A DNA stretch of 64,000 bases, from positions 62,001 through 126,000 of the forward strand of contig JAILAF010000069.1 of the NCBI GenBank assembly GCA_024681775.1, read 5' to 3'. This DNA is from Lachnospiraceae bacterium. Its GTDB lineage: Bacteria; Bacillota; Clostridia; Lachnospirales; Lachnospiraceae. The position numbers were made by a program, and so were the translations under genes. This document shows, in pieces, positions 29,514 to 38,864 of this stretch. The notes under the pieces were generated by a model. That model saw only the letters and a list, made by a program, of their open reading frames with translations. It made no database searches and had not been told where the DNA came from. Position 1 is the stretch's first letter. Each line of letters opens with the position of its first letter.

Positions 29514-30317
29514 TCATTTCACGTAATAGTGCCGCGCGATCCAGCTGGAGAGACCGCCGAGACCGGGATACATGATGCGCTCGCTGATGTTCAGCTGGTC
29601 CAGCATATCCCGCACCCGCCAGCGCAGGTTCCGGTCGATAACATATTTCACGGTTCCGTTTGTCCGGGCGTCCAGGAATCCCTCGATGTCCGTCATCTCC
29701 ATGGGCACCACGGAGAAGAAGGAGTACTGGTTCACGATGCGTGTGTTGACGGAAGGGGGCTCGATGACCACCATGGCATCCTTTCCCATGTCGGCATCGT
29801 ATTTTTCCAGGCTGTTGCCCGTGATCTCCTTCAGCATGTCCACGGAGTAGATGGTGGACATCTTCTGGTTCAGGAGGATGCTGTAGTCCTCCGGCAGGAT
29901 GGCGTGCATCTCGTCCATGTTGATCTGCCACACCACACAGTCGTGGGCGTCCATCTCCGCCATATCCGTCTCCGTGACGGCAAAATGCAGTCCGGTGAGG
30001 GCCGAATGGGTCCAGTCCAGGAGCCTGGTGGGAAGACCGTAATGCTGTCCCAGAATCATCTGGCGCCAGACGGACTCCGCGATGGTGGGATCCCCGATGA
30101 CGGCGTATTTTGCAAAAGTCTCCAGGATGGCAGGCTCAAGCCGCTTTGCCAGGTGCTTGCAGTTCCGGCCCAGGCTGGTCTCCATGCGGTAGTTCACATC
30201 CGGCATGCCGCGATAGAGATAGTTGTTGCGGTTCCGGTTCAGATCCTCCCGATACTCCTGGTCCGTCAGGAGGGGCATCAGTTCTTCGATCTTTGTGATC
30301 CTGACTTCTTTGATCAT
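29514..30317 (-). CDS. FRG domain-containing protein
   Basis: A 267-residue protein of the FRG family, named after its FRG motif; here the equivalent is NNYLYRGMPDVNYRMETSLGRN near residue 35. The family's second conserved stretch follows (QHYGLPTRLLDWTHSALTGLHFA). FRG proteins are of unknown biochemistry, and some sit in phage-defence or toxin contexts. I placed the start at ATG 30317 with GAGGTGAG upstream. It follows a small zinc ribbon gene by 64 nt and precedes the long hairpin region before copA. Confidence 0.85.
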   Translation of the reverse strand: MIKEVRITKIEELMPLLTDQEYREDLNRNRNNYLYRGMPDVNYRMETSLGRNCKHLAKRLEPAILETFAKYAVIGDPTIAESVWRQMILGQHYGLPTRLLDWTHSALTGLHFAVTETDMAEMDAHDCVVWQINMDEMHAILPEDYSILLNQKMSTIYSVDMLKEITGNSLEKYDADMGKDAMVVIEPPSVNTRIVNQYSFFSVVPMEMTDIEGFLDARTNGTVKYVIDRNLRWRVRDMLDQLNISERIMYPGLGGLSSWIARHYYVK

Positions 30318-30381
30318 AACTCTCACCTCGAATGGAAAAAATCCCGCCCCGCCGGGAGCCTCCTGCATGCGCGCATCCGCA

Positions 30382-35987: not shown

Positions 35988-38243
35988 CTACTCTCCCGTC
36001 GCCATACCGTCAAAATATTCCCACCACAGATCAAAGATCCTGCGCCCCAGCGGGTTGTTGGCATCCAGCACCGGAGCCGCGGAGTAAACGGGCCCCCCGG
36101 TGAGGGTGTGTCCTTCCGCCGGCGCAAAGAGCCGCCCGCAGGGACACAGATAGCTTTCCCGGATCCGAACCTCCTGCGCTCCGGCAAAGCCTGCGCGGAG
36201 CTGCTCCGAATGCCTCCCGGCAAAACGGGCCCGGTACATGTTTTTCCCGCAGGAGGGACATCTGCAGCCGGAAGCCGGAAGGCTCCCCTCCACAGGTCCG
36301 AAAACCCCCGCCGGCGCGGGTCCATCAAAGGTAAACAGACCGGGCAACTGTTCCGGGGGAACCATCACCTCAAACCACAGGGTCCTGCCGCGCAGGATCT
36401 GCCCCAGACGCTCCGGGCTTCCTTCATAACGCAGGTCTGCGGGAAAGTCCGGCGTGCTCTGCTGCCACTCCGCAACCACCTCTTCAAAAATGCCGAAATG
36501 CCGCAGATACCCTTCGGCAGTCCTTCGCATGGCATCGTCCTGCAGCGGGTCCTGCGCCAAAAACAGATAATCCTCTTTCAGACGCACATAATCCGACCCT
36601 ACCATGTACGCCACATCCAGGAGACTGTCCCTGCCCAGGACGCCTTCCAACGCCAGGGCCTCCTCCATCGCCCGCTCCAGATACCTGCGTGCCTGCAGGA
36701 TATTCTCCTCCGGACCGATCTGCCCCAGGCGGATCATGGAAAGGAGGGTCCTGCCGTAGTAGGCACAGACCTCAAAGAGCATCATGCGGGAACGGACATC
36801 ATGCAGGAGTTCCGCATTTGCCCGCAGCACGGGCTCAGCCTTGGAAAAGGCGGTCTCGGCGGACTCCGTATCCCCGCTCATGAGAAACACCTGGCCGAAG
36901 CGCAGATTTAAAGTGCCGGGACTGATCAGGGAGGATTGCTGTCCGCTCCGCAGAGAATACTGCAGCACGGGGACCTCCTCCGCAAGGAGCTCCGAAGCCT
37001 TTCTCCAGTCCTCCTTTTGCATATAATACCTGAAGAGATCCTCTCCCAGCTTGAAAACAGTCGGTGCAATGGAAAAGACCTTCTTCTCCGCGTCCGGGTC
37101 CGTCACCGCCTTCCGGCACAGCCTCTCAAAGGCCTGCTGCATCCAGGGGATGGCTGCCGTCTCCTTGCCGCTCTCCTGCAGCTCCCGGGCCATGCGGACG
37201 ATCCCCCAGATATACTCCAGACGGGCGGACTGCTCGAAGCAGTGTTTTGCCAGGGCCCGGTCGCGCTCGGTCAAGACCCCGGAGGCATAGGCTCTTCCCA
37301 GCCGGAACCACGCCTGCCCGGAGAGCTCGGGAAGCCTGCCCCCTGCTCTGCCAAAGGCTTCGTCAAGCCGCCCGCGGATCTTCCCGGGATCTCCGGAAAA
37401 GCACATCTCCCCGATGCCGGGGAAGGCTTCGACGAGGACAGCGGGATCCGCTTCCTCCATCATCACGGGCAGGATGATCTTCCCGGCACGGACCGCATCG
37501 GGGTATTCCTGTCTTATGACATAGTTGCCGTTTTCCAGGAGCCTGGGGGTGACCACCAACACAAAGACATCGCAGGCTTCCAGCTGCGCACGGATCTGCT
37601 CGTTGTAATCCTCTCCCGCCACCAGCGCATCGTCGTACCAGACCCCCACATCCCGGAGTTCTTTCCAGCTGCGCAGCAGGGAGAGAAATTCTTTCAGTCT
37701 CACCAGGTCCTTTTTCCGGTAGCTGAGGAAGATCCTGCCCCTGACCACGGGCTTCGGCGCTTCCTCCCAGACGGTCACATCCGCGTAGAGATTCACATAC
37801 CGCTCGATGAAGCTCTCCAGCTTCCGGGAAAAATCGGGAGCAGCGGCGCTCATCAGATGCAGGGACCCGAAGCGCTTCGTAAAGGCCGATCCCAGCCCCT
37901 CCTGCAGCGCAATGGGGAGCAGCACGCAGCCTGCGGCCTGAGCGGCGGGCAGCACCACGTTCCCTGCGACGCCGGGGTCTGCCAGAAAACGGGCGGTGAC
38001 CGCGATGACCACCGCCTTCATTTCACTCAAAACCGCCTGCAGCTCCGCAGGATCCGCTTCTGCCTCCCACCCCTTGGAGATCCGGATCTCCGCATGGAAG
38101 GACTCCCGGATCCGGGATGCGATCTCCCGCATGATCTCCAGATCCTCCGGATGTCCGCAGAGGTAGACGACCTCGTTTTTCCCCGGGTTCATCCCCGCCT
38201 CTTCCAGTGGATTCGGTATGACAAAATACGCTTTTTCTTCCAT
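35988..38243 (-). CDS. Double TIR-like, TPR and zinc ribbon protein
   Basis: A 751-residue multidomain protein. Residues 169-300 are a TIR domain: RIFLSYRKKDLVRLKEF, VGVWYDDALVAGEDYNEQI, and E246 in NYVIRQEYPDA at the position of the catalytic glutamate of TIR NADases. Residues 24-150 look like a second, degenerate TIR (VVYLCGHPEDLEIM) without that glutamate. Residues 320-620 are helical TPR/Sel1-like repeats. The C-terminus holds a zinc ribbon (CPSCGKNM, CPCGRLF). AAAGGAGCGG precedes the ATG. It is 30 nt after a flavin reductase. NAD cleavage and a sensing or defence role are inferences. Confidence 0.75.
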   Translation of the reverse strand: MEEKAYFVIPNPLEEAGMNPGKNEVVYLCGHPEDLEIMREIASRIRESFHAEIRISKGWEAEADPAELQAVLSEMKAVVIAVTARFLADPGVAGNVVLPAAQAAGCVLLPIALQEGLGSAFTKRFGSLHLMSAAAPDFSRKLESFIERYVNLYADVTVWEEAPKPVVRGRIFLSYRKKDLVRLKEFLSLLRSWKELRDVGVWYDDALVAGEDYNEQIRAQLEACDVFVLVVTPRLLENGNYVIRQEYPDAVRAGKIILPVMMEEADPAVLVEAFPGIGEMCFSGDPGKIRGRLDEAFGRAGGRLPELSGQAWFRLGRAYASGVLTERDRALAKHCFEQSARLEYIWGIVRMARELQESGKETAAIPWMQQAFERLCRKAVTDPDAEKKVFSIAPTVFKLGEDLFRYYMQKEDWRKASELLAEEVPVLQYSLRSGQQSSLISPGTLNLRFGQVFLMSGDTESAETAFSKAEPVLRANAELLHDVRSRMMLFEVCAYYGRTLLSMIRLGQIGPEENILQARRYLERAMEEALALEGVLGRDSLLDVAYMVGSDYVRLKEDYLFLAQDPLQDDAMRRTAEGYLRHFGIFEEVVAEWQQSTPDFPADLRYEGSPERLGQILRGRTLWFEVMVPPEQLPGLFTFDGPAPAGVFGPVEGSLPASGCRCPSCGKNMYRARFAGRHSEQLRAGFAGAQEVRIRESYLCPCGRLFAPAEGHTLTGGPVYSAAPVLDANNPLGRRIFDLWWEYFDGMATGE

Positions 38244-38273: not shown

Positions 38274-38864
38274 TCATTTTTTCTTCTTTTGCACGGAGTA
38301 ACCGAATTTTCCGATGTAATCCCCCAGGGCATAGTACTCCCCGTGGGAGTAAGCGATAAGGTCCGTGGCCGCCAGGTCAAAACGCCCGCTTTCATCCATG
38401 TACGCCCCGCTGACGGTCACGCCTTTGATCTTCCCCAGGAAGAGGTCGTGGGACCCCAGAGGCAGGATCTGTGTCACCTCGCAATACAGGTTCACGGGAC
38501 TCTCGGCGATGGCCGGCGTCTCCATGAATTCCGAAACATACTCCGTCAGATGCATCTCCCGGAACTTGTCCACATCCCGTCCGGACTTGACGCCGCACCA
38601 GTCGCAGGCTTTGGCCAGATCCCGGTTCACCAGGTTCACTGCGAATTCCCCCGTGTCCCGGATGATGTCATGGGAAAATCGGGAGGGGCGCAGAGATATG
38701 GAAAGCATGGGCGGGTCGGAGTTGATGGTGCCGGCCCAGGCCACGGTGACGATATCGGGCCTTTCGCCGGGCCGCATGCAGCTCACCATCACCGCAGGAA
38801 CGGGATAGAGCATGTTGCCGGGCTTCCAGATCTCTTTGCACATTGCAGATGGATTTTCAGACAT
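38274..38864 (-). CDS. Flavin reductase-like FMN-binding protein
   Basis: A 196-residue member of the flavin reductase family. The core reads PVPAVMVSCMRPGERPDIVTVAWAG, then DPPMLSISLRPSRFSHDII and GEFAVNLVNRDLAKACDWCG, which binds FMN. Such proteins reduce flavin with NAD(P)H or accept electrons. I chose ATG 38864 because GGAAGGAG lies 8 nt before it; the track start is 18 codons upstream. It is cotranscribed with the TIR gene. Since TIR enzymes use NAD, the pairing may matter, though this is speculative. Confidence 0.85.
   Translation of the reverse strand: MSENPSAMCKEIWKPGNMLYPVPAVMVSCMRPGERPDIVTVAWAGTINSDPPMLSISLRPSRFSHDIIRDTGEFAVNLVNRDLAKACDWCGVKSGRDVDKFREMHLTEYVSEFMETPAIAESPVNLYCEVTQILPLGSHDLFLGKIKGVTVSGAYMDESGRFDLAATDLIAYSHGEYYALGDYIGKFGYSVQKKKK

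Follow-up and report, generated by a model that had tools for sequence, protein, structure and literature searches.

A divergent member of a large double-TIR family in a Lachnospiraceae genome, predicted to be a gated NAD+ enzyme

The open reading frame at 35988..38243 on the minus strand of the window (the 64,000-nucleotide stretch of Lachnospiraceae DNA analysed here) encodes a 751-aa protein with two TIR domains, a run of helical repeats of Sel1/TPR type and a C-terminus rich in cysteine. With moderate confidence, drawn from sequence and predicted structure, we propose that this accessory gene works alone and specifies an NAD+ enzyme of the TIR type, serving most likely as a switch in immunity or conflict. 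The frame begins with an ATG preceded by its own, good Shine-Dalgarno sequence (AAAGGAG), and lies in a genome of 2.9 Mb that is 92% complete. Below, genomes carry G-numbers (G000 for that of the window; G403, G089 and G424 for those of relatives) and loci carry L-numbers.

A conserved and a degenerate TIR domain in one chain

The second TIR domain (TIR2, residues 166-300; 37344..37748, minus strand) is the predicted catalytic copy. It alone rises above the Pfam cut-offs in the 751-aa protein (TIR_2 at residues 171-268, E=2.4e-10, 41.4 bits with a cut-off of 28), and contains the motifs SYRKKD (174-179) and WYDD (202-205). The earlier note had singled out E246 (codon 37506-37508, minus strand) as a putative catalytic glutamate, and conservation fits this: all 90 distinct aligned relatives are invariant at E246, W202, D204, L207 and S174-Y175-R176. 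In the AlphaFold model E246 lies in a helix (241-252), as does the helix alphaC glutamate of catalytic TIR NADases, and because positions 243-245 are free to vary across the 90 relatives, its invariance is the pattern expected for a catalytic residue. Catalytic TIR NADases usually, not universally, carry a tryptophan four residues before this glutamate (WxxxE); here that tryptophan is missing, its place taken by V242, and N240-Y241 are conserved instead.

TIR2 also resembles known NAD+ enzymes. A sequence search of solved structures matched it to the NAD+ hydrolase tir-1 (E 0.003), with a profile match to tir-1/SARM1. Foldseek with the TIR pair returned the SARM1 TIR, SPARTA and a B. cereus TIR, at single-domain length and with TM scores of at most 0.68 by target length, in output that does not give whether TIR1 or TIR2 was aligned; with the full-length protein TPR proteins dominated the matches, so that search says little about the TIR domains. 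From the conserved glutamate, the tir-1 match and the Foldseek result, we infer that TIR2 is catalytic.

The first domain (TIR1, residues 22-150; 37794..38180, minus strand) was not detected by the Pfam search. HHalign nonetheless aligned it to TIR2 with 98.5% probability (E 2e-14; profiles from up to 90 relatives), placing V97 (codon 37953-37955, minus strand) on E246. AlphaFold gave the same beta-alpha order in both halves (25-150 and 169-299), and modelled a pair of TIR-like alpha/beta domains with an arm of helical repeats after them, with a mean pLDDT of 80 over the full length and 89 over residues 1-300. The protein thus belongs to the TIR superfamily by a TIR_2 match above cut-off and by TIR fold, TIR1 by profile-profile comparison only.

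Loss of the glutamate from TIR1, claimed previously, holds for the clade of the window (V in the window, V in G403, I in G089) and not for the whole family, in which the matching column of the 90 relatives holds 37 E and 25 D (62 with either), 12 V and 10 I, the residues other than E or D being mostly hydrophobic. These counts make a dead TIR1 a trait of the window's clade and some others, and an active-looking TIR2 general. At the level of sequence and fold, the proposal of an enzyme-pseudoenzyme pair with a sensing module is supported by this conservation, by HHalign and by the AlphaFold prediction that the earlier note had called for.

The repeats announced after the TIR domains are present, with corrected bounds: they are Sel1/TPR-like, span residues 309-595 (36459..37319, minus strand), and probably form a sensor or assembly arm. 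The assignment draws on the models and on Pfam, where Sel1 at residues 313-342 lies below cut-off. They are the fastest-diverging region, at 40% identity, with 56-59% for the TIR domains and 58% for the C-terminus. The C-terminal domain (residues 640-751; 35991..36326, minus strand) had been called a zinc ribbon. Its cysteine motifs are conserved, CxCPSC (660-665, with CPSC at 662-665) and CPC (700-702) being shared with the two nearest relatives but found at none of the other family loci searched; the zinc ribbon itself is putative, a label from the motif only because the tail is poorly modelled by AlphaFold.

A patchily distributed gene and a diverged allele

The TIR gene is accessory and patchily distributed. 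Counting the window's own genome each time, relatives occur in 11 of 397 genomes of the bacterial family (E<=1e-5), 4 of 31 of the genus (E<=1e-3) and 8 of 391 of the class (E<=1e-15), far from the universal presence that would mark a housekeeping gene. E. coli and PHROG searches gave no matches. Scanning a genome contig collection with a single-protein query likewise returned nothing, and an alignment query recovered 424 relatives, most of them from Clostridia of the gut and rumen, the others including Erysipelotrichaceae and a single spirochaete. We define the family by two TIR domains followed by Sel1/TPR repeats, with E246 and WYD kept; the window's protein has all of these. The suggestion of a new system was therefore overstated, and the gene represents one diverged lineage within a large double-TIR family. 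Together with those of G403 and G089 it forms a deep, long-branched clade (99% support in a quick tree), to which the Cys-rich tail is private. Two papers by Burroughs and Aravind reportedly bear on prokaryotic TIR, TPR-sensor and RyR systems.

Several genomes carry more than one copy. Three double-TIR genes stand in tandem at L145 8962-17439 (a Spirochaetaceae MAG) and two each at L101 and L105; paralogues also occur within G403 (L031, L033, L035) and G424 (L032, L034). On a contig from a viral collection (L200 3036-7460) a double-TIR gene follows what by eye appear to be a Tn916-type excisionase and integrase.

The window's gene sits among metabolic genes rather than in a defence island. On its 3' side are an acyltransferase, then a PAP2-like membrane protein and acyl-CoA-type genes (the latter two labels read from the sequences by eye); on its 5' side, beyond a flavin reductase-like gene, is a divergent sodium:alanine symporter. 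We rejected a recent foreign island: the GC content of the gene (0.62, against about 0.57) is not clearly atypical and leaves foreignness not clear-cut, and close relatives are absent from the plasmid and phage records searched.

Only G403 has the same locus, in a block syntenic with the window; in G089 the gene lies in a different neighbourhood. Between the window and G403 the TIR gene is 51% identical, against 85-97% for nine genes around it, and the contrast extends to third positions (46% against 65-83%), dN (0.43 against 0.02-0.09) and dS (1.46 against 0.32-0.76), values that come from NG86, are near saturation for the TIR gene and represent the small sample of one genome pair. Selection speed alone is not expected to raise dS, so an older allele brought in by recombination is likelier. 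This suggests allele replacement at the TIR locus, as in a conflict gene; the raised divergence also fits relaxed constraint, although E246 is kept. Patchy distribution, and an allele unusually diverged for its conserved locus, lend indirect support to a role in defence or stress rather than housekeeping. Elsewhere in the window, an FRG-domain protein (29514-30368, minus strand; Pfam 3.9e-20) matches the PADLOC candidate defence model PDC-S15 (5.8e-41); being 96% identical in G403 it is not fast-evolving, unlike the TIR gene.

RyR neighbours and comparison with known systems

No neighbour is conserved across the whole family: clustering the neighbours of 87 loci gave as its largest group an HD/RyR group of 7 loci. 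A profile for the RyR domain (PF02026) seeded from L017, L020 and L021 also found L035, L100, L105 and L123, so that RyR genes accompany 7 of 89 double-TIR loci, mostly at 0-58 bp and usually directly adjacent; some of their products are channel-like. Pfam was independently over cut-off at four of them (L017, L020, L100, L123), and about 0.04 would be expected by chance in the bases searched, a rough figure from 31 matches in 392 genomes of the order and an assumed mean genome of 2.8 Mb. Phage RyR-domain proteins (RyDEP) bind and cleave 2'/3'cADPR (PMC13232231, a 2026 preprint), which makes cADPR signalling plausible for RyR-linked family members; binding by bacterial RyR-channel proteins is only putative. 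Among other sampled RyR loci, six (L182, L185, L172, L174, L179, L183) encode RyR-domain proteins with N-terminal membrane segments, some adjoining other TIR genes, and two of these (L182, L185) have a VGYGD-type K+ channel filter.

These neighbours suggest TIR-to-channel signalling in the wider family, and not for the window's gene. They allow a reading, which we consider possible though tentative, in which TIR2 makes a cADPR isomer for a separate receptor, this being, in part of the family, a RyR-domain protein that is sometimes fused to a membrane or channel portion, so that a signal derived from NAD would open a channel, the arrangement being Thoeris-like with another effector. The close spacing, the excess over chance, the channel filters and the phage precedent favour it, but RyR is missing from most family loci, a double TIR lies within 1.5 kb of just 1 of 30 RyR loci sampled independently (RyR has other partners), no RyR match at E 0.01 was found in the window's 92% complete genome, and none stands beside the TIR gene in the two closest relatives. 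With no RyR match in its genome, the association is no evidence on the window's protein. A bolder extension, which we think rather unlikely, is that double-TIR/TPR proteins would be widespread makers of NAD-derived messengers in gut Clostridia, with RyR domains gating K+-type channels much as cADPR controls ryanodine receptors, and the window's clade having an unlinked effector or none.

In Thoeris, a ThsA effector gene lies next to the ThsB TIR gene. The window's protein shares with ThsB a TIR_2-type domain with a conserved glutamate, and 16 of 46 family members match the PADLOC ThsB model (best 2.9e-11), the window's own match being weak and partial (7.7e-6). However, its gene adjoins an acyltransferase and a flavin reductase rather than a ThsA (SIR2-SLOG or macro), and the chain itself adds a second TIR and a long TPR and Cys-rich tail. 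SARM1 and tir-1 likewise combine a repeat arm with a catalytic TIR (predicted here) in one chain, and match by sequence profile and fold, whereas the window's protein places TPR/Sel1 repeats after the TIR domains, lacks SAM domains and has two TIR domains in a row, one of them dead. Its tandem arrangement may also be likened to the diverged TIR pair of Dictyostelium TirE (PMC13142454), which is eukaryotic and carries RCC1 repeats.

A proposed gated enzyme and its alternatives

We favour a single-chain mechanism. The TPR/Sel1 arm and Cys-rich tail would keep the protein off until a trigger is bound, whereupon molecules would assemble through TIR-TIR contacts. TIR1, its glutamate lost in the window's clade, may act as a built-in scaffold or regulatory partner, and TIR2 would use E246 to cleave NAD+, giving depletion or an ADP-ribose signal. 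For the window's member we favour direct NAD+ depletion, because no cADPR-type effector gene adjoins it. An immune purpose is suggested by the distribution, by the divergence and by what TIR proteins generally do. Counting against an immune enzyme are V242 in place of the usual tryptophan, the metabolic surroundings, a GC content that is not clearly foreign and the weak ThsB match.

TIR domains may be purely structural, and many are adaptors. Both domains might then serve assembly only, with a structural glutamate, as the glutamate already lost from TIR1 and the missing WxxxE tryptophan would allow; we find this doubtful, as E246 is invariant in all 90 relatives while its neighbours vary in the manner expected around a catalytic residue.

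The flavin reductase-like gene (38274..38864, minus strand; Pfam Flavin_Reduct, E 2.8e-29; likely start 38864, not 38918) ends 30 bp upstream of the TIR gene on the same strand, and the earlier note took the two to be cotranscribed and linked through nicotinamide cofactors. The two genes could plausibly share a transcript in this genome, but their arrangement is not a conserved one. The flavin reductase is a core gene, near-universal and single-copy (181 of 200 genomes of the bacterial family, 29 of 31 of the genus), a contrast with the TIR counts that MAG incompleteness, which depresses the latter, cannot explain. It normally lies at other sites: in no genus-mate except G403 does the TIR gene adjoin it, and there an MntP-like membrane protein gene, absent from this position in the window, intervenes (L031 9955-10548, minus strand). 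In G089 the two are on different contigs, with at least 2.6 kb between them, and beyond the window and G403 the only family locus with such a gene within its stretch is L151, where it lies far off on the opposite strand. We judge the flavin reductase an ordinary housekeeping gene whose link to the TIR gene is incidental; a functional partnership is not supported, and a redox or NAD-metabolism operon, for which the spacing and shared strand speak, is largely refuted and very improbable.

We suggest that the protein represents a large TIR family, for which we found no curated model, with a built-in second TIR that is dead in some clades, including that of the window. Its RyR-linked members make it possible to test directly whether RyR-bearing channels open in response to bacterial TIR signals, and its architecture would allow TIR assembly and catalysis to be separated by point mutants within one chain.
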